From positions 2,046,716 to 2,110,715 of the forward strand of contig MVDH01000001.1 of the NCBI GenBank assembly GCA_003056245.1: DNA of 64,000 nucleotides, written 5' to 3'. This DNA comes from Cellvibrio sp. 79. GTDB lineage: Bacteria > Pseudomonadota > Gammaproteobacteria > Pseudomonadales > Cellvibrionaceae. A program made the position numbers and the translations under genes. This document shows positions 11,078-64,000 of the stretch, in pieces (the first letter of the stretch is position 1; each line of letters starts with the position of its first letter). Below the pieces are notes generated by a model. That model did not search any database and was not told the origin of the DNA. It saw only the letters and a list, made by a program, of their open reading frames with translations.

Positions 11078-11757
11078 AGCAACTCTTGATTAACGTAGCT
11101 TTTTATTAACAAAGCTCTTAATTAACGTAACTGTTGGGATTATGACCGCGCTGGACAAAGCAATTTTTTGTAAACAGCATTTATCCGACGAATAAAGTGG
11201 CGGGATGATAGGTAAGCGCCCCCCGCACCGCAAGCATGATATTAAGGAATGCCAAATTTCGTACAGCGCTGTCAATGTCGCGCCAATTTCAGCCGTTGCA
11301 ATTCGGGGTGTACGAGAGAATTTTTTCGAACGCCGAATCTGCTTTTTATCTCGAACCCCGCCCAGCCGTGCCAATGTCATGAAAACAGTCTCATTCACGC
11401 TGCAAATGTGGAGCGCCTTGCATTTTCAGGTTCGAATTTTGGTTGTGCCCGTGAATCCGCGCCTTTTGTAAAAAGTGGGAAGATAAAAAATACCTGCCCA
11501 TAGACCATTTCCCGCATTGGAATTACCAAAAACCGCACGGAAGTCTGGATAAAAAACTACTACATCAACTCGATTGCTCACCATCAAGGTTCTCCAGTCG
11601 ATTCGCTAAAACGGCCAGCCAAGACGTTAAAAGCCCTGTTTCAAGCGAGTAGCCGTCACTGGAAAAACCCGCGCAAAAATCCGTTTATCGACAACACCCC
11701 GGGGTGTTGGAGAGCGTATTCAGGCGTGAAAAATTTAATAACAACGGGCAAAAAAAT
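11078..11757. other. Intergenic region between hrpA and the CAZyme cluster
   Basis: About 680 bases between divergently transcribed genes. It contains small open frames on both strands (for example a 102-residue minus frame at 11090-11398), but they lack ribosome-binding sites and protein-like composition. It should hold the promoters for hrpA and for the plus-strand secreted-enzyme cluster. No RNA gene or repeat was recognised. Confidence 0.5.
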
Positions 11758-14349
11758 ATGACCATCTTCGATCAACAAATTGGCCATCAACCAATTGTTT
11801 TGCACAACCTATCAACGCGCAGCGATATCAGCCGTGTTGTTGCTGTTATTGCAGCCAATCTCCTGTGCATCACCGCGCTATTTGCCGGTGATGCACAAGC
11901 CCAAACCGAAACCTTGCTCTCGCGCAATGTCACCACAACTGCCAGCTCGCAACTGCAAGCGGCAAACCTTGCGGTAGATGGCGATGTGGGTACACGTTGG
12001 GAATCCAACCATGGTGCAAGCCCCGCGTGGCTGCGTCTTGATCTCGGTAATAGCCAACCGCTTACCCGCGCAGTGATTCGTTGGGAAGCTGCTAATGCAG
12101 CTAATTACAGTATCGACGGCTCCACTGATGGCAATAACTGGACAACCATCGCCACCCGCACCGGCGGCGCTTTTGGTGAGCGCACGGATACCGTGAATTT
12201 ATCCGGCAGTTACCGCTATGTGCGAGTCAACAGTACCGCGCGCAGTGCCGGTAACGAATGGGGTTATTCCATCTGGGAAGTTGAGGTTTACGGCAATATC
12301 GACGATGACAGTAGTTTGCCTGCGCCCTGGCGCAATAGTGATATAGGTTCACCCAAGGCCGGCGCGGCAAATCTGGAGGATAATGTTTTTACCACTGCCG
12401 CCAGCGGTGTGGATATCTGGGGAACCGCCGACAGTTTCCATTACGTTTATCAACCGATCACCGGCGATATCACCGCCACCGCGCGAGTGACCTCGGTAGA
12501 TCCGGTAAATCCCTGGGCGAAAGCCGGGTTGATGATCCGCGATGGCCTGAATGCCGATGCCAAAAATGCGTTTGTCGGTATAACCGTCGCCAACGGTGCA
12601 ACCTTCCAGCGCCGCGCGGCGACTGCCTGGACCACGGTCAGCACCAAGCAATCCGGAATTGTCCCGCCTTATTGGGTACGTTTGGTTCGCAGTGGCAATA
12701 ACATCTCCGCCGCGATATCCATTAACGGCACCAGTTGGATGGATCTGGGTAGCGAAAGTATCAGCATGGGCAACCAGGTTTATGTGGGGCTTGCCCACAC
12801 CAGCCATGATCCGGCGCTGGTGGGGTTGGCCACTATCGACCAGGTCAATGTGCGTGATACGCGCGCGAATTTGCCCGCGTTTTGCAATCGCTACCCGCAA
12901 ACCGATGGCTGGCAATCGTCCAAAGTCTGGTACAGCAATGGTCGCCTGACTTACTCGACCGAGGCTAATAACCGCATTCCGGATTACAGTTTTGCGGGTT
13001 ATCGCTACGGTGAACAAGCCCTGCCGAATGTACCGGTGGTAACGACTTTGGGACCAACCAGTGGTGATCAAACGGCGCGTATCCAATCGGCGCTGGACGC
13101 TATCGGCAATCGCACCCCCAACGCCAACGGTCAGCGCGGCACCTTGCAATTATTGCCGGGGCGCTACGAGATTTACGGCATCCTGCGGATTCGCCAAAGT
13201 GGTGTGGTACTGCGCGGGTCGGGTCGCGGAACCAATGCGGCAGTGGATACCATCCTGCATGCGCGCGGCAATAATCCGCACCAGCGCACCGTGGTTATTG
13301 TGGGGACCAATGACAGTTCGCCCTGGGACGCCGGTGCCAGTACCAATGTGACGGATAATTTTGTGGCGGCAGGCAGTTTGAGCGTGAATGTCCAGAATGC
13401 CGCGCTGTTCAGTGTCGGACAAGAAGTCATTATCACTCATCCATCAACCCAAGCCTGGATCAATGCGATTGGCGGCGGCGGTGTCACTACCGGCGCGTGG
13501 GCGGCGGGCAGTAGAGATATTCCTTACGTCCGCAAAGTGACCGCCATTTCCGGCGCGCGTATCACCTTTGATGCACCGCTGTTCAATCATTTGGATCGTT
13601 CGTTGAGCCAGGCCCGTGTGGCCGTGGTAAGCGCGCGCAACCTGATCCGTGAAGCGGGTGTGGAAAACCTGCGTGTGGATATAGAAACCGCAGGCGGCCA
13701 GGATGAAAACCATGCATGGAGCGCTATCGCCGTTACCGGTGCGGAAGACTCCTGGGTGAAAACCGTGGCAACGCGCTACTTCGGTTATGCCGGGGTGAAG
13801 ACCGCTGGGGCCATCCGCATCACTATCGATACCGCCAGCGCGACCAATCCCATTGGCATCCGCACCGGTAGCCGCTTCTATAACTTTGATGTCGATGATT
13901 ACAGCCAGTTGGTGTTGTTCAGCAACTGTGTCGCTGCCGATGGTCGCCACAACTTTATTAGTAACGGCACCATGAGCGCATCCGGCGTGGTCTGGCATCG
14001 CTGCACCAGCATTGGTACCAACGATTCCGAAGGCCATCGCCATTGGTCAACGGGGATGTTGTTTGACGGTATCACCGGCAGCAACCTGAACCTCAAGCTG
14101 TTCAATCGCGGCGATTGGGGCACGCAACATGGATGGGGTCTTGCCCATTCCACAGCCTGGAACAGCCAGGCCACGTTCTTTATCCAGAAACCACCTACTG
14201 CACAGAACTACGGTATTTCCGGGCTGGGCAATAACTCCACCGCTTACAGCTTCCCCGGCGCCATGGGTTATGTGGATATCCGCCCCGGCCAGAAGCTGGT
14301 GCCGGAATCACTCTACGAAGCGCAACTCTGTGACCGTTTAACTCGTTGA
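11758..14349 (+). CDS. Secreted CBM32 / DUF1349-like / beta-helix polysaccharide-active protein
   Basis: 863 residues from the ATG at 11758; the frame can extend to a GTG at 11704, but the shorter start gives a sensible signal peptide ending AQA-Q. Domains in order: an F5/8 type C (CBM32-like) module (about residues 30-163), a concanavalin-like module of the DUF1349 type (about 180-375, with AKAGLMIRDGL and YVGLAHTSHD), and a long right-handed parallel beta-helix of the pectate-lyase superfamily type (about 375-855). The helix begins with a conserved-looking IPDYSFAGYRYGE stretch. The catalytic specificity is unknown; polysaccharide lyase or hydrolase are both possible. It is followed by a terminator and by a GH18 protein with a closely similar N-terminal half. 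Confidence 0.8.
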   Translation: MTIFDQQIGHQPIVLHNLSTRSDISRVVAVIAANLLCITALFAGDAQAQTETLLSRNVTTTASSQLQAANLAVDGDVGTRWESNHGASPAWLRLDLGNSQPLTRAVIRWEAANAANYSIDGSTDGNNWTTIATRTGGAFGERTDTVNLSGSYRYVRVNSTARSAGNEWGYSIWEVEVYGNIDDDSSLPAPWRNSDIGSPKAGAANLEDNVFTTAASGVDIWGTADSFHYVYQPITGDITATARVTSVDPVNPWAKAGLMIRDGLNADAKNAFVGITVANGATFQRRAATAWTTVSTKQSGIVPPYWVRLVRSGNNISAAISINGTSWMDLGSESISMGNQVYVGLAHTSHDPALVGLATIDQVNVRDTRANLPAFCNRYPQTDGWQSSKVWYSNGRLTYSTEANNRIPDYSFAGYRYGEQALPNVPVVTTLGPTSGDQTARIQSALDAIGNRTPNANGQRGTLQLLPGRYEIYGILRIRQSGVVLRGSGRGTNAAVDTILHARGNNPHQRTVVIVGTNDSSPWDAGASTNVTDNFVAAGSLSVNVQNAALFSVGQEVIITHPSTQAWINAIGGGGVTTGAWAAGSRDIPYVRKVTAISGARITFDAPLFNHLDRSLSQARVAVVSARNLIREAGVENLRVDIETAGGQDENHAWSAIAVTGAEDSWVKTVATRYFGYAGVKTAGAIRITIDTASATNPIGIRTGSRFYNFDVDDYSQLVLFSNCVAADGRHNFISNGTMSASGVVWHRCTSIGTNDSEGHRHWSTGMLFDGITGSNLNLKLFNRGDWGTQHGWGLAHSTAWNSQATFFIQKPPTAQNYGISGLGNNSTAYSFPGAMGYVDIRPGQKLVPESLYEAQLCDRLTR

Positions 14350-14361
14350 TTTTCCCCTTTA

Positions 14362-14396
14362 GCTCATCTGGAGTCGTCCCCGGGTGGGCTTTTTTT
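14362..14396 (+). terminator. Rho-independent terminator
   Basis: A 10-pair stem including several G-T pairs (GCTCATCTGG against CCCGGGTGGGC) followed by seven T, 12 bases past the stop of the beta-helix gene. It suggests the two similar genes are separate transcription units, or at least attenuated between them. Confidence 0.65.
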
Positions 14397-14458
14397 CTAC
14401 CGACAAACAGTGGGAGTTCGAATCGCAATGCGCAGCCCCACTGCGAAACAGGAGCATT

Positions 14459-17266
14459 ATGAATCATTTAACCTTTGCAAACCGCGCCTGGTTGCCCGCC
14501 GCTATCGCGTTGGCAATCGGCTTTATCGCCCACCAGAGCAATGCGCAAACTGACACTCTTTTATCGCGCAATGCGGCGACCTTCGCCAGTTCCCAATTCC
14601 AGGCCGCCAGCCTGGCGGTGGATGGGGATTTGGCCAGCCGCTGGGAATCCACCCATGGCGTTGATCCATCCTGGCTAACACTGGACCTGGGCAGCAGCGC
14701 TAACCTCACCCGCGCAGTAATCCGCTGGGAAGCGGCCAACGCAGCCAATTACATCGTACAAGGCTCCAATAACAATTCCACCTGGACCACTATCGCTACA
14801 CGTACCGGCGGCACATTTGGTGAGCGCACCGATAACGTCACCCTCTCCGGCAATTACCGCTATGTGCGGATCAACGGAGCAGCGCGCAGTGCGGGCAATA
14901 GCTGGGGTTACTCCATTTGGGAATTCGATGTTTACGGTACGTCCGGTAATGCTGACCAGGATGGCGACGGTGTCACCGATGCACTCGACCAATGCCCGAA
15001 TACGCCTGCCGGAGTAAACGTCGATAGCAACTGTTGCGAAATCGCCCTGCCCTTGCCCTGGCGCAATGGAGATATAGGTTCGCCACGAGCGGGATTAGCC
15101 AGCCTGAGCGGCGGTGTATTTACCACCGCTGCCAGCGGTACCGATATCTGGAACAACAGCGACAGCTTCCACTACGTGTACCAACCGGTGAATGGCAATG
15201 TCACCATTACCGCGCAAGTCACTTTATTGGATGCGACGAATCCCTGGGCCAAAGCCGGCGTAATGATTCGCGACGGTTTGGGGACGGATGCTAAAAATGC
15301 CCTTATCGCCATTACTCCCGCTAACGGTGTTACGTTCCAGCGCCGTATTGCGACTGCCGGCGTCAGTACCAGTAACCAGCAAGCCGGAGCAGCGCCTTAT
15401 TGGGTGCGCCTGGTACGCTCAGGAAATTCGCTGACCAGTTTCTATTCCACCAACGGCAGCAACTGGACTCAACTCGGCAGCGAAACCATTGCGATGACCA
15501 ACCAGGTTTACGTTGGCCTTGCACATACCAGTCACGATGCCGCACTTACCGGCCTCGCCAAATTTGCCAATGTCAGTGTGCAAACCAGTGCCTGGATTAA
15601 CCGCGATATAGGTACGCCGCTCGCAGGCAGCACCACCGTGTCGGGTTCGACAGTAACCACGCGTGCGGCGGGCGATGATATTTGGAACGAGGCGGATAAT
15701 TTCCATTTTGTGTATCAACCGTTAGCCGGTGACGGTGCATTGGTTGCACAAGTCAGCGCACTAGACGCAACCAATGCCTGGGCCAAAGCCGGTGTAATGA
15801 TTCGCGATGGTCTCGCTGCCAATGCGAAAAATGCGCTGATTGCTGTGACCTCTGCCAATGGCGCTACTTTTCAACGTCGCACCACTGCGGGCGCAATAAG
15901 CACCAGCATTAATCAAGCGGGAATTACCACGCCTTACTGGGTGAAGATCAGTCGCAATGGAAATTTATTGCGCGGATATACATCAGCAAATGGAACCGAT
16001 TGGACGTCGGTAGGCAATGACACTATCAGTTTGGGTTCAGAGGTTTATATCGGCCTCGCCCACACCAGCCACAACACGGCGCAAGTCGGTAACGCAACCT
16101 TTAATCAAGTCGTGTTACAACCGGGCGCAATTTGTTTTTACGAGCAAATTAATTACGGCGGTGCGAGTTTCTGTAGCGGTGTTGCTGCGCAAAATTTTGC
16201 GGCAGGCTGGACCGGGCAAGTCTCGTCAGTAAAAGTTGTCGAGGGTTATTCACTGCGTTTGTACAGCCAGAATAATCAGGGCGGAAGCACAGTCACATTA
16301 ACAACAGATGTCGCCAACCTTGCGCAATTTGGTTTCGATAATCTCGCCAATTCTTTTGCGATTACCAATGGCCAAACCAGCACCAGCCAATACAAAGTTG
16401 TCGGCTATATGCCGGATTGGGCTGGCAGTCCCGAAGCGATCCAGTACAACAAATTAACGCACATCAATTATTCTTTCGCGCTGCCAAACAGCAACGGCAC
16501 TTTGCAAGGAATTTCTACCGCCAGCGCTAATAAATTGCGCTCCATTGTTAACCTCGCCCACGCGCGCGGTGTAAAAGTGGGGATTGCGATTGGCGGTTGG
16601 AACAATGGTAATGATTCCGCGTTTGAAACTCTCGCCACCAATGCCAGCACACGTACCGCTTTTGTGAATAACGTGATTAATTTTGTAAACACTTACAACC
16701 TTGATGGTGTGGATATGGATTGGGAATATCCGGACCCGGGTGTATCCGCAGATCGCTATGCGTTATTGATGCAAGAACTTTCCATCGCATTGCATGCGCG
16801 TGGAAAATATTTAAGTGCGGCGGTGGTTGCATCAGGTGGTACAGGCGCTGGATTAAAAAATGAAGTCTTCGGCTATGTGGATATGCTTAACATCATGGCT
16901 TATGACGGCAATGCAGGTTCAGGTCACTCACCTTATTCCTATGCACAAAGCTCGTTGAATTACTGGTTGAATCGCGGTTTGCCACGCGAAAAAGCAGTGC
17001 TCGGTGTTCCTTACTACGCGCGCCCGAGCTGGCTGGGTTACAACCAGTTAATTGCCAATAACAGCGCAAATATTTGCCGCGATACCAACGGTTCCGATTA
17101 CTGGAATGGCATTCCCACCATTCGCCAGAAAGCGCAACTCGCACGCAATCAGGCGGGTGGAATTATGACGTGGGAATTATCGCAAGACACCAACTCCTCC
17201 AATTCGCTGTTAACCGCGATGTACGAAGCGATCAACGCGTTGCCGCAAACTTACAACTGCAATTAA
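14459..17266 (+). CDS. Secreted multidomain GH18 chitinase-like enzyme
   Basis: 935 residues from the ATG at 14459, preceded by AGGAG; the frame extends further upstream but without support. Signal peptide, with probable cleavage SNA-Q. Domains: CBM32-like (about 30-160), a calcium-binding thrombospondin-3-like linker DQDGDGVTD (about 165-185), two DUF1349-type concanavalin-like modules (about 197-378 and 379-555), a beta/gamma-crystallin-like module (about 557-638), and a GH18 catalytic domain (645-930). The GH18 signature DGVDMDWE spans 749-756, with E756 as the catalytic acid, and the SxGG-equivalent strand reads GIAIGGW. It probably hydrolyses chitin or related N-acetylglucosamine polymers outside the cell. 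Its N-terminal modules are near-duplicates of those in the upstream gene. Confidence 0.9.
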   Translation: MNHLTFANRAWLPAAIALAIGFIAHQSNAQTDTLLSRNAATFASSQFQAASLAVDGDLASRWESTHGVDPSWLTLDLGSSANLTRAVIRWEAANAANYIVQGSNNNSTWTTIATRTGGTFGERTDNVTLSGNYRYVRINGAARSAGNSWGYSIWEFDVYGTSGNADQDGDGVTDALDQCPNTPAGVNVDSNCCEIALPLPWRNGDIGSPRAGLASLSGGVFTTAASGTDIWNNSDSFHYVYQPVNGNVTITAQVTLLDATNPWAKAGVMIRDGLGTDAKNALIAITPANGVTFQRRIATAGVSTSNQQAGAAPYWVRLVRSGNSLTSFYSTNGSNWTQLGSETIAMTNQVYVGLAHTSHDAALTGLAKFANVSVQTSAWINRDIGTPLAGSTTVSGSTVTTRAAGDDIWNEADNFHFVYQPLAGDGALVAQVSALDATNAWAKAGVMIRDGLAANAKNALIAVTSANGATFQRRTTAGAISTSINQAGITTPYWVKISRNGNLLRGYTSANGTDWTSVGNDTISLGSEVYIGLAHTSHNTAQVGNATFNQVVLQPGAICFYEQINYGGASFCSGVAAQNFAAGWTGQVSSVKVVEGYSLRLYSQNNQGGSTVTLTTDVANLAQFGFDNLANSFAITNGQTSTSQYKVVGYMPDWAGSPEAIQYNKLTHINYSFALPNSNGTLQGISTASANKLRSIVNLAHARGVKVGIAIGGWNNGNDSAFETLATNASTRTAFVNNVINFVNTYNLDGVDMDWEYPDPGVSADRYALLMQELSIALHARGKYLSAAVVASGGTGAGLKNEVFGYVDMLNIMAYDGNAGSGHSPYSYAQSSLNYWLNRGLPREKAVLGVPYYARPSWLGYNQLIANNSANICRDTNGSDYWNGIPTIRQKAQLARNQAGGIMTWELSQDTNSSNSLLTAMYEAINALPQTYNCN

Positions 17267-53737: not shown

Positions 53738-56020
53738 TTAATACACTTCAAAATCCCACAACGAATAACCGTAACCAGTACCGCGCGCAGTGCCATTAAT
53801 ACGTACATAGCGGCCTGAACCACTTACCGTTAAATCATCAATTGCACCATCGCCATTGGTAACTGTGTGGATGGTCGTCCAGGTCACATTATCGGTTGAT
53901 GTTTGCACCTGATAATTTTTACCGAACGCCCCCTCCCAATTCAGTTTTACGCGGCTGATGCTTTGCACTGAACCGAGATCCACGTTAATCCATTGCGGAT
54001 CACTCCATTGGCTTGCCCAGCGGGTATTGTTATTTCCATCTACCGCTTGCGCTGCATTCCATGCAGCACCTTCATCGCTGGAAGCCGTTACGGGTTTATT
54101 CAACGCTTTATTCGTGGTTGTTGGCGGAGTAATTCCACCGCCGCCATACACTTCAAAATCAAATAATGAATAACCATAACCGGTTCCGCGTTGTGTACCG
54201 TTTAAACGTACATAACGGCCAGTGCCTGTTGCAGCAATGTCATCCACACCACCGTCACCGGTGGTGGTGGAATAAATAGTGGTCCAATTTACTTTGTCAT
54301 CCGATACCTGGATTTGATAGGACTTGCCGTAAGCCGCTTCCCATTTTAATAACACGCGGTTAATTGATTTGCTGCTACCCAGATCCACATAAATCCATTG
54401 CGCATCGGTCCATTGGCTCGCCCAACGTGAATTGGTGTTGCCATCTACTGCATGTGTTGCAGACATGCCATCATTTTCTGATGAAGATGCAACGGCTGTT
54501 TTATTTAACGCGAGATTGGTGCTGTCCTCTGGTGGATTTGGTGTGGTTGGTGGCAGCACCGGTGGCTTACCGCCACCTAATGAATACACACGCACCCAGT
54601 CAATTAACGTCGATACTGGAAATACCGCTTCAGGAACAATTCCGCCACCGTAAGTGAAACCGGATTGACCACCCACACCCGAACTTAAAATCAAATACAT
54701 TTGGTGCTCGAACGGATGCCATTCAGAAAAGTGATTGGAATATTCTGAAACGTAAGTGCGTTTTCCGTTGCGAATTTCCGTGCGCGCCGCATCACCGCCA
54801 TCTGCTGGAGGAAATGCGCCGCCGTCATTTAAATAATGGATGTGATACACATTGCCATCGACATAAAATTCGATACGATCGTTGTGCCAATTAACACCGT
54901 ACGTATGCCAACCCCAGCTTCCTGCATTTTGATCATTCGCTGCCGGCGGATAATTGCCGTAACCGGGGTTACGCAAATTACTGCTCCAGCGTGTAGACGT
55001 TTGACCATCCACTGCATTTACTGCGGCAAGATCCGGTGCTTGCAAAGAAGAAACAGTAACCGGGCGATTCAATGCGAGATTGGTACCCGCAGAATTTTTA
55101 ATTTCAAATTCAAACAGAGAATAACTCCATTCAGTCGCGCGCTCGGTGCCATACAGTCGCACATAACGACCATTGCCATTTGCGTTGATAAGATCAATAC
55201 CGCCATCACCCGTCGTGGTGGAATAAACATCAGTCCAATTTAACTGATCATTGGACGTTTGAATTTTATACGTTTTTCCGTAAGCACCTTCCCAATTTAA
55301 TACGACCTGGTTAAACGCTTGCGCACTGCCTAAATCTACTTGAATCCACTCGGGTTCATCAGGGCCTTGTTTATCTTTGAAGCTGTAATAACCACCGAGA
55401 TGGCCGTGGTTCCAATCCTGATATGCATTATTTTCCCAGAACCAGGCGTAGTGTACGGTACCTAAATTATGAAATGGAATTGAACCAACATATTCCATAA
55501 TGTCCACTTCGCCACCTTGCGGCCACATCAAGTGATCTTCACCCGCTGGAATTTCGTTAGGCATCATCCAGAACGCAAAGCCCTGCCCCTGGTATTTCAC
55601 ATCCTTTGCCCATACGCGTGCTTCAATTTTATAACCGGGGCCGAAAGCGACTTTACCGGCGGTGTTAATACGACCACTGGTGTAATCTTTATCGATGTAA
55701 AATTCCTTGCGTGTGGTGATAGACAAAGCACCGCCATCAGCGCCCGCAATTCCCTGTTTAATACTGATGTTTTCCGGGCGATCTGTGGCGCGGTCTAATT
55801 GTCCGGTACCCCAATCACCATTAATGCCGGTACCGGTTTCGATATTCCACGCGTCCAAATCAAGTTGGGTACCATTAAATTCATCGCTCCATATTAACGT
55901 TTGCGCGAAAGTATTCATCGCACCAAATGTTGATAGTGCAATAGCCAATGGCAATAAACGTCGAGTGTAGTTTTTCAAACGGGGCTGGATAAGGTTGGTC
56001 TGTTTCGAATTATTGTTCAT
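53738..56020 (-). CDS. Secreted GH16 beta-glucanase with an internal and two C-terminal CBM32 modules
   Basis: 760 residues. Signal peptide ending TFAQ (about residue 40). The GH16 catalytic domain starts IWSDEFNG and carries the catalytic motif EVDIME (171-176; E171 nucleophile, E176 acid/base), followed by GTVHYAWFW. At about residue 218 it is interrupted by a discoidin (CBM32-like) sequence with its halves swapped: EWIQVDLGS...FEFEI first, then NLALNRPV...TRWSS. The GH16 domain resumes near 362 (SWGWHTYGVNWHNDRIEFYVDG) to 480. After a Pro/Gly linker come two normally ordered CBM32 modules (501-625 and 638-760). It probably hydrolyses beta-1,3- or mixed-linkage glucans outside the cell. AGGA precedes the ATG. 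The permuted insert is unusual. Confidence 0.9.
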   Translation of the reverse strand: MNNNSKQTNLIQPRLKNYTRRLLPLAIALSTFGAMNTFAQTLIWSDEFNGTQLDLDAWNIETGTGINGDWGTGQLDRATDRPENISIKQGIAGADGGALSITTRKEFYIDKDYTSGRINTAGKVAFGPGYKIEARVWAKDVKYQGQGFAFWMMPNEIPAGEDHLMWPQGGEVDIMEYVGSIPFHNLGTVHYAWFWENNAYQDWNHGHLGGYYSFKDKQGPDEPEWIQVDLGSAQAFNQVVLNWEGAYGKTYKIQTSNDQLNWTDVYSTTTGDGGIDLINANGNGRYVRLYGTERATEWSYSLFEFEIKNSAGTNLALNRPVTVSSLQAPDLAAVNAVDGQTSTRWSSNLRNPGYGNYPPAANDQNAGSWGWHTYGVNWHNDRIEFYVDGNVYHIHYLNDGGAFPPADGGDAARTEIRNGKRTYVSEYSNHFSEWHPFEHQMYLILSSGVGGQSGFTYGGGIVPEAVFPVSTLIDWVRVYSLGGGKPPVLPPTTPNPPEDSTNLALNKTAVASSSENDGMSATHAVDGNTNSRWASQWTDAQWIYVDLGSSKSINRVLLKWEAAYGKSYQIQVSDDKVNWTTIYSTTTGDGGVDDIAATGTGRYVRLNGTQRGTGYGYSLFDFEVYGGGGITPPTTTNKALNKPVTASSDEGAAWNAAQAVDGNNNTRWASQWSDPQWINVDLGSVQSISRVKLNWEGAFGKNYQVQTSTDNVTWTTIHTVTNGDGAIDDLTVSGSGRYVRINGTARGTGYGYSLWDFEVY

Positions 56021-56377: not shown

Positions 56378-58147
56378 TCAAGGGTGTAACACTAACGAGT
56401 GGAGATTATACGCTCCTGCTTTTGAGTAAATCCGTAACTTGTTGGCACCTTGTGACAATTTGACATCTGAAATTGTTACTGATTGGTAATTTTGTGATGC
56501 AGGTACATTTACGTCTGTATTTAAATTTTGATTATTCACATCCACATTAATTTTGCCGCCTTCAACTGACGCCTTAACAACGACAGCCAATTCATAAGTG
56601 CCAGCTTCATCCACGTGTAACGTATATTCCAACCATTCATCTGTCTCAAAATGAGTAACCACATAAGATTTTTTTGTCACATCAAATTCAATATCAACGC
56701 CTTCATTGCGATAAGTAGTGCCACGATTCCATGGCGTGCGCTCTTTACCGGTAGCGACGTGGTAATTTGCAGAATCCTTATCCCAATACGCGATACCACT
56801 GCGCCCCATATCAAAATCTACGGCCAACACAGTTGCACCGGATTTTTTAATACGGTGAATTTTATAAGGCACGCTGGCATGTGAATAAGGTTGGCGAAAC
56901 ATAGCATCAATCACTTCCGGGTGAATTTGATTATTCTCAAAACGAATATCTTCAGCTAATTGCAACAACGCTTTTTTTGCAAAAGCTGCAGATGGTTTTT
57001 CAACCTTACCATTCAAATAATCGATAACTTTTACATAGTCCGCGTTAGGTTTTACTTCCAATGGATTATTAAACCCAAGTTTTTTCAATGGCCACCAGGC
57101 CCAACCAATGTCTTGTGATTCCACCAACTCAATCGCATCAGTAAACCATAGATTGGAATTCTCGCCCGACTCACCCAACCAGATCGGCATGTTATATTTT
57201 TCACGCAATGCTAAATGGCCACTAATATCTGCCACGGTGTTGTTGTTCCAGTATTTGTGGAAACTCAGCACCAGGTTTTTGTTTTCTTCCGGTTTATCCC
57301 ATAAGGGCAAAATGCCAGCGTAATTATTGCCCCAGCAATTGCCTTCAATAATCACAATGTGTTTGTTATCCACTTCACGAATGGCGTTGGTGACATCCTG
57401 CAATAATTTTTTCAGCGGCGCGTTTTTGGTTTCTTTGCAGCCGTTTTTATCCGCTGCATTTTCAAAGCCCCAGTTGGGCTCATTGATAATATCGTAAGCG
57501 CCTATTGTCGGCTCATCCGCGTAGCGCTGCGCCAGTTTGCGCCAGAGTGCGATCATTTTTTGCTGGTTGGCTTCGCTTTGCCAAAGGGATGGGGTGTTCG
57601 GGTTGCGATCAGAAATCGCAAAATCATTGCCCTGCCCGCCAGGCGCCGCATGTAAGTCCAGAATTACATACATATTATTGGCTTTGGCCCAGGCGATTAA
57701 TTGATCGGTCATGGTAAAACCCTGTTCGAGCCAGGTGTTCTGGCCAGCGACGGGTTCTTGCTCAATGGGTAAGGTGTAAAGGTTGAAATGCATGGGCAAG
57801 CGCACTGAATTAAATCCCCATTGTGCCATCGCATCGATATCAGCCTTGGTTGTGTGGTTGGCAAGCCAGGCTTTATAGAATTCATCGGTCGCTTCTTTAC
57901 CCGCCAGCTCTTCAAATTTTGTACGCATCACATGCTGCTGCCCCAGATTGCCCAGCTTGAGCATGTAACCTTCTTGCAGCATCCACCCGCCCAGGCCCAT
58001 ACCGCGCAGCAGAACTTTTTCACCCTGCTCGTTCACGATGTAATGACCTTCGGTGCGCAAAAAACTTTGCGCATTAGCGATACTGGTGGCGAGACTGAAA
58101 CCGAGGAGAACAATAGATTGAAGAAGTGTGGACTTAATCGATTTCAC
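56378..58147 (-). CDS. Secreted GH5 glycoside hydrolase with C-terminal CBM6-like module
   Basis: 589 residues from a GTG preceded by GAGG. Signal peptide ends ANAQ. The GH5 barrel covers about residues 28-385: LLRGMGLGGWMLQEGYM, the INEPN motif with acid/base E223, and the nucleophile in WLGESGE (E326). A mid-region of about 60 residues follows, then a CBM6-like beta-sandwich (about 445-589) beginning DMGRSGIAYWDKD. The N-terminal GGWM pattern is typical of GH5 exo-/endo-glucanases acting on beta-glucans. It sits between GH16 and a divergent membrane AraC regulator, so beta-glucan is the likely substrate. Confidence 0.9.
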   Translation of the reverse strand: MKSIKSTLLQSIVLLGFSLATSIANAQSFLRTEGHYIVNEQGEKVLLRGMGLGGWMLQEGYMLKLGNLGQQHVMRTKFEELAGKEATDEFYKAWLANHTTKADIDAMAQWGFNSVRLPMHFNLYTLPIEQEPVAGQNTWLEQGFTMTDQLIAWAKANNMYVILDLHAAPGGQGNDFAISDRNPNTPSLWQSEANQQKMIALWRKLAQRYADEPTIGAYDIINEPNWGFENAADKNGCKETKNAPLKKLLQDVTNAIREVDNKHIVIIEGNCWGNNYAGILPLWDKPEENKNLVLSFHKYWNNNTVADISGHLALREKYNMPIWLGESGENSNLWFTDAIELVESQDIGWAWWPLKKLGFNNPLEVKPNADYVKVIDYLNGKVEKPSAAFAKKALLQLAEDIRFENNQIHPEVIDAMFRQPYSHASVPYKIHRIKKSGATVLAVDFDMGRSGIAYWDKDSANYHVATGKERTPWNRGTTYRNEGVDIEFDVTKKSYVVTHFETDEWLEYTLHVDEAGTYELAVVVKASVEGGKINVDVNNQNLNTDVNVPASQNYQSVTISDVKLSQGANKLRIYSKAGAYNLHSLVLHP

Positions 58148-61792: not shown

Positions 61793-64000
61793 TTAATAGA
61801 CTTCAAAATCCCACAATGAAATTCCGTAACCGTTAGCGCGAGTTACGCCGAGGATACGCACGTAACGGCCCGTGCCGGAAACCGCTTGATCATCCACATC
61901 GCCATCACTGTTAAGTTCAGACTTTATGGTTGTCCAGGTAGTTGCGTTATCGGAAACCTGGATGTTGTAGGCTTTCGCGTAAGCGCCTTCCCATTTCAAC
62001 TTCACACGGCTGATGGTTTTGCTGCTACCGAGGTCTACGTAAATCCATTGGTTATCGATAAATTGACTGGCCCAACGCGTTGCAGTGTTGCCATCAACCG
62101 CTTGTGGTGCAGAGTTGCCACCCCACTCGTCTGATGATGCAACTGCCGTGCGATTCAATGCAAGATTCACATTACCAGCGGTGCTGCTTGCTACAGAACT
62201 GCTTGCCACACTGCTGGAACTTTTTGATGAGCTTGACGCGACCGCGATATTGTTCACTTGGAAGTCATACAGTGAATAACCGTAACCAGTTCCGCGCTCA
62301 GTACCATACACACGCACGTAACGGCCAGTACCGGAAACATTTAACACTTCACGACCACCAACACCGGTTGTGGTTTGGAAAATAGTTGTCCAGCTCGTAC
62401 CGTTAGTCGATGTTTGGATTGAGTAGCTTTTGCCATAAGCCGATTCCCACTGCAATACGATTTGATTGAAGCTGTGGCTCGCGCCCAGATCCACCATAAT
62501 CCATTGCGGATCAGCAGAAATACTCGCCCAACGTGTTGTTGTGCTCGCATCGGTTGCGTTTGCTGCTGCCCATGCTTCGCCTTCAGTCGTCGATGCAACT
62601 GTTGGACGATTCAGTGCGAGATTTCCAAACGGCGTCACCACAACACTGCTTGAGGAGCTCACAGCAGATGATGAGGATTTGGAAGAACTCACAACAGAGC
62701 TTGATGAGCTTTTTACTGACGAGCTGCTCGAGCTTTTACTGGATGAGCTAACAGTAACACTGCTCGAACTTCTGCTTGATGAGCTGATGACAACGCTACT
62801 TGAACTTCTTGACGAAGACGTAGCAACGCTGGAACTGCTTGCTGATGCGACAGTAAATTTCACCCAGTTCACATTGATTGCTTGATTAAATACCAAACGC
62901 AATTTGTGCGCGCCTGCTGTCAATGCGAGTTGAGAATTTACCGTAGCCCAGGTTTGCAATCCGCCGGTTGATGAAACATTGATTACCGCTTTTTGCACAC
63001 CGTCCACCAACACATTGATAGTGCCTGATGCTTCGCTAGCAACACGCAAACTCAAATCATAATTTGCAGCAGAACCGGTCACGTTGTATTCCACCCACTC
63101 GCCGGCAGCTACATCACTCAGGTTGAGGAAACCGGAAACGTCTTTGGTTTCTTCTACACGAATACCATTACGGGTTGCGTAATTTTCTGCTTGTACCAGT
63201 TTAGGTAAAGTGTGAACGCTGGTATCGCCATGCACCGGCATATTGACATAAATATTGCCGAGTTCAGCCAGCACACCAGATTGGCGATAATCAAACAAAC
63301 CATTGAACGGATGACCATTGCGACGACCAGTGAACCATGCATAGCGTTGCATATCCGCATTGTTTTCAAATGAATCCACCACTTGAATCAGCATGCGTTT
63401 TTGATCGTCCAACGTTTTTACGGTTTCCCACGCGGAGAATTCGGTCATCCAGACGGGCTTGCCGTATTTTTTAAATTCATTCACATACCACTCAACGCCA
63501 TTTACATCGGGCATGTAAGCGTGGATAGAAATTGCATCCACTTTACAGGTTGGGCAGAGACGGAAGAAATCATCGAAGTAATCGAACGGGCTGTAATAGG
63601 TAGTACCATTTTCCGTTACGCAATTACCGCAATAGTTCATCGCCACGCTGACAATTTTCAAACCAAATTCATTGGCGATTGCTTCCAGGCGCGGCCACTG
63701 TGCAACGGCTTGCGATGGCGTCATGTTCGCCTGATCGATAAAGTTTGGTTCGTTAAACGCGAGGATATATTTCACATCCGGATGTGCGGCGATATAAGCA
63801 CGCATCGCTTGATCGTTGAAATTTCCGTTCCATGCCATGGGTACAAATTCAACACCGTATTGTTGGTAAACATCTTTTACCGCGAGGTCCGGGCTGTGGC
63901 TCCAGTTGTACCACCAGCTGATGCCTTTGGAAATTACTGCAAGATCTTCTACCGAATGAGTGCCGTAACCCAAACCGCGCTTTTTACTTTTGCCGGCTTT
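61793..64000 (-). CDS. Secreted GH128 beta-1,3-glucanase with CBM6, Ser linkers and two CBM32 modules (5' end outside window)
   Basis: The frame stays open to the window end, so the N-terminus (signal peptide) is missing. The visible part starts KAGKSKKRGLGYGTHSVEDL and continues GISWWYNWSHSPDL, the GH128 beginning. The catalytic residues are in LAFNEPNF (acid/base) and VWMTEFSAW (nucleophile). A CBM6-like module follows (QAENYATRNGIRVEE...), then a long poly-serine linker, a CBM32 module, a second short Ser linker, and a final CBM32 ending SLWDFEVY. GH128 members cleave beta-1,3-glucan. It is preceded downstream by a strong terminator. It complements the GH16 and GH5 enzymes of the neighbouring locus. 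Confidence 0.9.
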   Translation of the reverse strand, partial: KAGKSKKRGLGYGTHSVEDLAVISKGISWWYNWSHSPDLAVKDVYQQYGVEFVPMAWNGNFNDQAMRAYIAAHPDVKYILAFNEPNFIDQANMTPSQAVAQWPRLEAIANEFGLKIVSVAMNYCGNCVTENGTTYYSPFDYFDDFFRLCPTCKVDAISIHAYMPDVNGVEWYVNEFKKYGKPVWMTEFSAWETVKTLDDQKRMLIQVVDSFENNADMQRYAWFTGRRNGHPFNGLFDYRQSGVLAELGNIYVNMPVHGDTSVHTLPKLVQAENYATRNGIRVEETKDVSGFLNLSDVAAGEWVEYNVTGSAANYDLSLRVASEASGTINVLVDGVQKAVINVSSTGGLQTWATVNSQLALTAGAHKLRLVFNQAINVNWVKFTVASASSSSVATSSSRSSSSVVISSSSRSSSSVTVSSSSKSSSSSSVKSSSSSVVSSSKSSSSAVSSSSSVVVTPFGNLALNRPTVASTTEGEAWAAANATDASTTTRWASISADPQWIMVDLGASHSFNQIVLQWESAYGKSYSIQTSTNGTSWTTIFQTTTGVGGREVLNVSGTGRYVRVYGTERGTGYGYSLYDFQVNNIAVASSSSKSSSSVASSSVASSTAGNVNLALNRTAVASSDEWGGNSAPQAVDGNTATRWASQFIDNQWIYVDLGSSKTISRVKLKWEGAYAKAYNIQVSDNATTWTTIKSELNSDGDVDDQAVSGTGRYVRILGVTRANGYGISLWDFEVY
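62637..62850 (-). repeat. Poly-serine linker repeat
   Basis: Low-complexity stretch coding for about 70 residues of mainly Ser with Val, Arg, Lys and Thr, joining CBM6 and CBM32 of the GH128 protein. Such linkers are characteristic of Cellvibrio-type secreted enzymes and are recombination-prone at the DNA level. Confidence 0.85.

Follow-up and report, generated by a model that had tools for sequence, protein, structure and literature searches.

A putative beta-1,3-glucan hydrolase of Cellvibrio carries a predicted circularly permuted CBM32 module within its GH16 catalytic domain

A gene on the minus strand of the window, by which we mean the whole 64,000-nucleotide stretch of Cellvibrio sp. 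79 DNA that was analysed, encodes a protein whose GH16 catalytic domain is almost certainly interrupted by a complete CBM32 module with its halves in swapped order, an anatomy that comes near the limit of certainty for sequence data. The original prediction of a circularly permuted CBM32 within GH16 is supported by the order of profile matches, by comparison with a CBM32 of solved structure, by the clean empty site of insert-less orthologues and by the insert's presence in all eight orthologues found in the family. Domain insertion and circular permutation are each known; here they are combined in a natural CBM.

Results

Anatomy of the GH16 protein

The gene and its predicted parts are as follows:

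53738..56020, minus strand: whole gene, 760 amino acids, with GH16, the inserted permuted CBM32 and two normal-order CBM32 modules
55358..55906, minus strand: first part of the GH16 catalytic domain (amino acids 39–221), with the GGEVDIMEY catalytic motif and the TVHYAWFW strand
55082..55357, minus strand: first piece of the insert, matching the C-terminal part of CBM32 (amino acids 222–313, including a six-residue bridge), by profile order, 4zy9 and half-order scores
54980..55081, minus strand: second piece of the insert, matching the N-terminal part of CBM32 (amino acids 314–347, NLALNRPV to TRWSS), by the same three comparisons
54578..54979, minus strand: joint NLRN and second part of GH16 (approximately amino acids 348–481; GH16 proper from PGYGNYPP, amino acid 352), by Pfam and alignment
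54146..54517, minus strand: tail CBM32 module m1, normal order (amino acids 502–625), by Pfam and profile order
53741..54112, minus strand: tail CBM32 module m2, normal order (amino acids 637–760), by Pfam and profile order

The N-terminus is of the signal type, as judged by eye. Pfam divides the GH16 match into two stretches and finds three F5/8C (CBM32-type) stretches; PF00722 (GH16, a family of enzymes that cleave beta-glucans) scores 45.2 bits against a gathering cut-off of 22. The GH16 ExDxxE motif and its histidine (E133, D135, E138 and H152 in alignment numbering) are constant in 21 of 21 aligned rows, and the nearest solved relatives of the GH16 part are laminarinases. We regard the protein as a putative beta-1,3-glucan hydrolase, the substrate being the presumed part of this assignment. 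Three GH16 laminarinases, ULam111 (5wut), PfLamA (2vy0) and TmLam (3azx), align with it over the catalytic motif and later strands; unlike the window protein, however, their chains of 235–272 residues are too short for an inserted domain.

The interval first assigned to the insert (54941..55369) does give a CBM32-type match by itself, with 79 bits against PF22633 (cut-off 27.8) and 76.4 bits against PF00754 (cut-off 28.2), although the module bounds lie at about amino acids 222–347 (nucleotides 54980–55357) and not at 218–360. Its length had been put at about 143 residues, whereas the protein has about 127 residues more than its insert-less orthologues; and GH16, thought to restart at about residue 362, really does so at about residue 352 with PGYGNYPP, which is present in the insert-less orthologues too. 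The swapped halves are indeed joined by a linker, of six residues here where five had been proposed, and of about five in other genera.

The insert matches CBM32 in swapped order

Order was assessed with two profiles, one made from the tail modules of the eight orthologues (124 positions) and the other from 136 modules; the profile-scan scripts count residues from the upstream stop, which equals ATG numbering plus 5. Against the normal CBM32 profile, amino acids 222–307 match positions 38–123 and are followed by amino acids 314–351/352, which match positions 1–38/39. The two matches (38–123 and 1–39 of 124) fit together with almost no gap or overlap and the module is whole. Such complementary profile pieces are those of a circular permutant and argue for a swapped order; the insert thus departs from the linear order of CBM32/F5-8C modules in having its C-terminal part first. 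The two downstream CBM32 modules are in normal order, as claimed earlier. The N-terminal part of the insert scores 33.6 bits, a value reached by none of 4938 reported shuffles.

As a reference from outside the gene's own family, the solved CBM32 4zy9 was compared with the insert by phmmer: insert residues 1–86 match chain 46–135 (94.7 bits) and insert residues 93–126 match chain 8–41 (18.4 bits, weak if taken alone), so that together the matches leave out only chain 42–45 within chain 8–135. When the halves were re-set to normal order, the global score rose from 269 to 376.5 against one tail module and from 241 to 349.5 against the other, and each half outscored all 500 shuffles in the comparison with either of them.

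Since many matches in related proteins span both halves in one piece, we suspected a tandem artefact, in which the C-terminal part of one module is read together with the N-terminal part of the next, and this was rejected. A module scan of the window and of a sample of loci among the matches listed, with 18 duplicate loci removed (some modules are still counted twice in overlapping loci), gave 163 full normal-order modules in 74 open reading frames and 30 odd pieces. Sixteen of these pieces come from the eight GH16 genes (two each), 10 lie at locus ends, where they are not judgeable, and four belong to a GH38 protein described below.

Distribution and origin of the insert

The gene was found over practically the full query length in 8 of 144 family genomes and 3 of 32 genera, namely four genomes in Cellvibrio, three in g22 (which includes Microbulbifer mangrovi) and one in g28; the insert is at the identical place in all eight (L039, L040 and L041 duplicate L010, L011 and L014 and were counted once). 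The L015 orthologue (L074 7964–9859, minus strand, G080) has a single tail CBM32 and keeps the insert. A pattern-based scan of one genome per species (84,980 species) gave 24 loci: three with the insert (Cellvibrio mixtus J3-8, a Gammaproteobacteria MAG and Microbulbifer mangrovi DD-13), all repeating genomes of the family search; 14 from Bacteroidota without it; and seven distant matches. The Bacteroidota orthologues (L042–L055) have neither insert nor CBM32 tail, and are 58–67% identical to the window protein over GH16 (13 aligned). Their empty site aligns as QVPSPSD|PGYGGYPP against QGPDEPEW...TRWSSNLRNPGYGNYPP in the insert-bearing proteins. L054, which contains unread bases, is omitted from this alignment and from the tree, and is also insert-less in a separate comparison.

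No insert-less orthologue was found among the genomes sampled from the organism's own order, of which 4 of 390 have the gene (E 1e-30), or from its own class, of which 1 of 369 has it (E 1e-40), each of these with an insert-sized break; the four gene-positive genomes of the order sample all belong to the family. There was no match to the query in the phage collection, and among plasmid records the 87 that match are all below 60% identity, none with 80% query coverage.

The search for homologues and the phylogeny that had been proposed along with the prediction thus recover the same insert in eight genes of three genera and one change on the GH16-core tree. In this tree, which was built without the insert columns (eight insert-bearing, 13 empty and four outgroup sequences), presence of the insert switches once, with support of 74/99 and in 100% of 200 bootstrap trees; inner forks are poorly resolved and the single-change branch alone gives no direction of gain or loss. 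Because the insert-less form is continuous and spread over the Bacteroidota, the simple reading is that the gammaproteobacterial line gained the insert once, and we infer a single origin of the insert in the ancestor of the Cellvibrio, g22 and g28 copies. The patchy presence of the GH16 gene and its near kin in the Bacteroidota suggest in addition that the gene itself was probably transferred between phyla, from Bacteroidota.

The protein's own tail, the neighbouring gene and another tandem were weighed as candidate sources of the insert. In a tree of the C-terminal part made by a quick method (72 rows and 86 columns, which are few), the eight inserts form one group (SH-aLRT 91) that adjoins six modules (SH-aLRT 86), one from the neighbouring gene (L004) and five from large proteins of other Cellvibrio genomes. 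By pairwise scores of this part, tail module m1 and several others are about equal, and identity to several related modules is about 60%; the best matches to the N-terminal part are in g22 genes. Related proteins carry tandem CBM32 modules with linkers down to four residues.

Selection and conservation

The insert is under purifying selection. Its dN/dS is 0.033–0.052 in three Cellvibrio pairs and 0.066–0.089 in three g22 pairs, rough figures given a dS of 0.7–1.8 within genera that is mostly saturated between them. The corresponding values are 0.030–0.070 and 0.095–0.181 for the tail modules, where finite, and 0.006–0.031 and 0.024–0.096 for the GH16 parts. Invariant columns number 66 of 127 in the insert (eight genes), 52 of 124 in m2 (eight rows) and 43 in m1 (seven rows, L015 having a single tail module). 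Between genera (three pairs) the insert is 63.5–68.3% identical, compared with 46.8–54.0% for m1, 56.9–66.1% for m2, 80.2–85.7% for the first GH16 part and 67.7–72.9% for the second, the insert being closer than either tail module in all three pairs. Within Cellvibrio it shows no advantage over the tail modules (90.6–95.3%, against 91.1–95.2% for m1 and 93.5–95.2% for m2). Over all nine pairs compared, within and between genera, both GH16 parts are closer than the insert.

The joints GPDEP and NLRN, which are part of neither the empty site nor the loop of a normal module, have seven of nine residues constant across the eight genes with no change of length (by eye). In wider windows, which also include conserved residues of CBM32 and of GH16, 11 of 15 and 15 of 17 columns are invariant. 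Invariant columns number 4 of 14 in the bridge that closes the old termini and none in the linker to the tail, which varies from 6 to 21 residues.

Binding end of the insert

The loop straight after the RW motif (DD1/DD2 position 36) is one that we take to be a ligand loop, and the insert is opened near profile position 38. The ligand loops of CBM32 are grouped on the apex or edge of its sandwich fold (PMC5291390, PMC3313936); in AlyQ the N- and C-terminal ends of CBM32 are hydrogen-bonded to each other (PMC5651945), and in DDR1 the ligand loops lie on the side opposite the next domain (PMC3320712). Opening in a binding-end loop implies that the module would be held to GH16 by that end, the reverse of a normal CBM32, and the inserted CBM32 therefore looks inverted relative to the usual attachment, its sugar-binding end turned toward the enzyme.

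Of the positions that we assume to be usual for ligands in CBM32 (14, 31, 36, 60 and 116), Arg31, Glu60 and Tyr116 are retained in all eight inserts. At position 14, in contrast, all eight inserts have Gln, where all 15 tail modules and 90 of 110 distinct normal modules have Glu (9 of the 110 have Gln); at position 36 all eight inserts have Leu, where 81 of the 110 have F, W or Y. These two replacements indicate that sugar binding by the insert may be altered or lost, and from the aligned residues its apex looks rebuilt in a uniform manner. A predicted structural metal site, AVDG..STRW, is constant in 8 of 8 inserts, and its Asp25 and Thr30 occur in 110 and 93 of 110 normal modules respectively; we equate these residues with D209 and T214 of AlyQ, whose Asp and Thr side chains form the structural metal site of that module (PMC5651945).

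Conservation of the apex was counted over positions 11–17, 29–41, 57–63 and 108–117. These windows were chosen from DD1/DD2 residue numbers as we assume them to be. The insert has 27 of 34 invariant columns in the apex against 37 of 86 elsewhere (ratio 1.85), m1 has 18 of 37 against 25 of 87 (seven rows, ratio 1.69) and m2 has 22 of 37 against 30 of 87 (ratio 1.72). We had considered apex conservation as proof of docking and withdrew it, the nearly equal ratio in the tail modules marking it as a general habit of CBM32 and making docking somewhat less likely than we had first judged.

Place of the insert within GH16

In the part of the ULam111 paper used here, strand b8 carries catalytic residues, b9 (131–137) ends at the catalytic His137, and b10 and b11 comprise residues 148–152 and 161–167 (PMC5595797). 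By profile alignment TVH of the window protein falls at b9 and HTYGVNW at b11, which places the insert in the b9–b11 connection, most likely after b10. Read from the strand names in that paper and not from a superposition, this place would be the acceptor-side rim of the cleft. The extra loop of ZgLamA was also considered as the site and set aside, since the residue numbers in the same part of the paper, taken without alignment, would put that loop elsewhere (PMC5595797).

A candidate second case in a GH38 mannosidase

The same genome encodes, outside the window, a GH38 alpha-mannosidase of 1463 amino acids (L071 530–4918, minus strand; G000:C1:2206000-2212000) with an interrupted C-terminal domain. 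Compared with Ams1 (6lz1), its flanks nearly meet (chain 860 and 864) and the query has 158 extra residues. This stretch, at about amino acids 653–810, holds a CBM32 C-terminal part (profile 31–121, 50.2 bits) followed by an N-terminal part, NVALRKSV...AVDG, so that the module would be opened near profile position 29, compared with position 38 in GH16. By BLAST both pieces align in one stretch with the GH16 insert (35.9% identity, E 3e-13). The N-terminal part is weak, scoring -1.1 bits in the whole protein; the isolated fragment gives 6.8 bits with the broader profile, a score that 3 of 4941 reported shuffles reached. Searches of 144 family genomes and of 398 phylum genomes each found the insert in a single genome (E 1e-25 or better), its own, and plasmid-borne mannosidases among the first listed matches span both flanks with stretches too short for it. 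We regard this putative swapped CBM32, seen in just one of the genomes searched, as a weaker case than that of GH16.

Neighbouring genes and related systems

Two further enzymes lie beside the GH16 gene:

56378..58147, minus strand: GH5-type enzyme with a C-terminal CBM6/35-type module
61793..64000, minus strand: protein cut by the window end, with GH16, PKD, Glyco_hydro_cc (which we take to be GH128-type), CBM6 and two CBM32; the whole protein (L072 1012–5421) has 1470 amino acids and two catalytic domains

The first CBM32 of the 1470-amino-acid protein is in the group adjoining the inserts in the C-terminal-part tree, and the cluster also has an AraC-type regulator. In G094 and M. mangrovi the GH16 gene adjoins a large gene whose protein has the same make-up by Pfam; in G080 its neighbour is a large CBM32-bearing open reading frame, in G027 one lies 6 kb off, and in G136 none was found within about 7 kb of it. 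Elsewhere in the window two adjoining large proteins (11704–14349 and 14384–17266, both plus strand) each have a CBM32-type module and a match to DUF1349, which is below cut-off in the former; the latter has a GH18 domain.

Among solved structures, the insert and a tail module are most closely related to the CBM32 modules 4zxe, 4zy9 and 4zz5 (glucanase/chitosanase), which we take to be the Paenibacillus DD1/DD2 modules. They are in normal order and tethered by their termini, whereas the insert is swapped, has Gln14 for Glu14 and has no counterpart of 4zy9 chain 42–45. Accessory domains inserted in catalytic domains of other folds include CBM58 of SusG and CBM35 of CITase. The permuted beta-lactamase inserted into maltose-binding protein in engineered switches is likewise a permuted domain in a host, although that is man-made; in the natural case described here it is the binding domain that has been inserted. 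An accessory domain likewise interrupts the catalytic domain in the I-domain of the RgNanH sialidase (PMC4747158) and in CE20 esterases (PMC12313940), in other host folds and with swapped order unmentioned in the parts of these papers that we cite. In the cited part of its paper, the engineered starch-binding permutant CP90 of RoCBM21 likewise has new CBM termini, with altered selectivity and increased affinity, but is man-made, belongs to another CBM family and is not inserted in an enzyme (PMC3511584). Among the titles and abstract starts listed from a library of open-licence papers we found no description of a GH16 enzyme with an inserted CBM32, in agreement with the expectation of the original prediction, nor of a natural permuted CBM32.

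Discussion

We propose, tentatively, a reading that may be right and is the likeliest of those weighed here: that the insert's rebuilt apex packs against the cleft rim and offers the glucan chain an additional, fixed surface, the fold, docking, joint surface and substrate all being predicted. A permuted CBM32 would have been inserted a single time into the segment that connects two GH16 strands, in the common ancestor of the three genera's copies, possibly as a piece cut out of register from a CBM32 tandem, consisting of a C-terminal part, a short linker and the N-terminal part of the next module. Opened in a binding-end loop, the module would be fixed to GH16 by its binding end instead of its usual base; this end would form one joint surface with GH16, and the insert would provide the beta-1,3-glucan chain with an additional wall or subsite, fixed in place, and would not act as a freely swinging targeting module, targeting being done by the tail CBM32s. 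A fixed joint surface is favoured because the joints are conserved while the bridge and the tail linker are variable; the GH16/GH128-type and GH5-type neighbours fit the use of beta-1,3-glucan.

A complete module that retains Arg31, Glu60 and Tyr116 might instead be an autonomous glucan-binding CBM, tethered in a loop by chance, that attaches to another segment of the chain and holds the enzyme to insoluble substrate. We find this doubtful in view of the loss of the usual aromatic 36 and Glu14, and because the joints are conserved, whereas a free tether should be as variable as the linker to the tail. Those changed ligand positions, and the conserved joints expected of any fixed interface, would also suit a structural clamp that only stabilises the GH16 fold or covers a loop, with no substrate contact; it is an unlikely explanation given that the Bacteroidota orthologues exist without an insert and that Arg31, Glu60 and Tyr116 are still invariant.

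The short linkers of related tandem CBM32s, the approximately 60% identity of the C-terminal part to several related modules and the lack of better conservation than the tail within Cellvibrio could each be expected of a neutral accident, in which CBM32 repeats recombined out of register with a GH16 loop and the product was tolerated as the module termini adjoin. Such an origin without function is very unlikely, however, since the insert is kept in all eight genes, even in L015 with its one tail module, has a low dN/dS and is more alike between genera than m1 and m2. An assembly error or misjoined reads, in favour of which we found nothing, can hardly be credited at all: the junctions are identical in eight genomes of three genera, and inserts that are 63.5–95.3% identical (nine pairs) do not come from a single shared error.

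Given the GH38 protein, we also considered whether order swapping is a recurrent natural means of turning a CBM32 round so that its binding end faces the enzyme, and judge it improbable; if true, glycan binding at the joint can couple to the catalytic cleft, in a natural counterpart of man-made insertion switches. CBMs are usually pictured as beads on a string. The inserted permuted CBM32 would be a ready template for enzyme engineering, and a permuted CBM inside a catalytic domain in three genera, with insert-less orthologues for comparison, would constitute a natural experiment on the orientation of binding domains in glycan attack.
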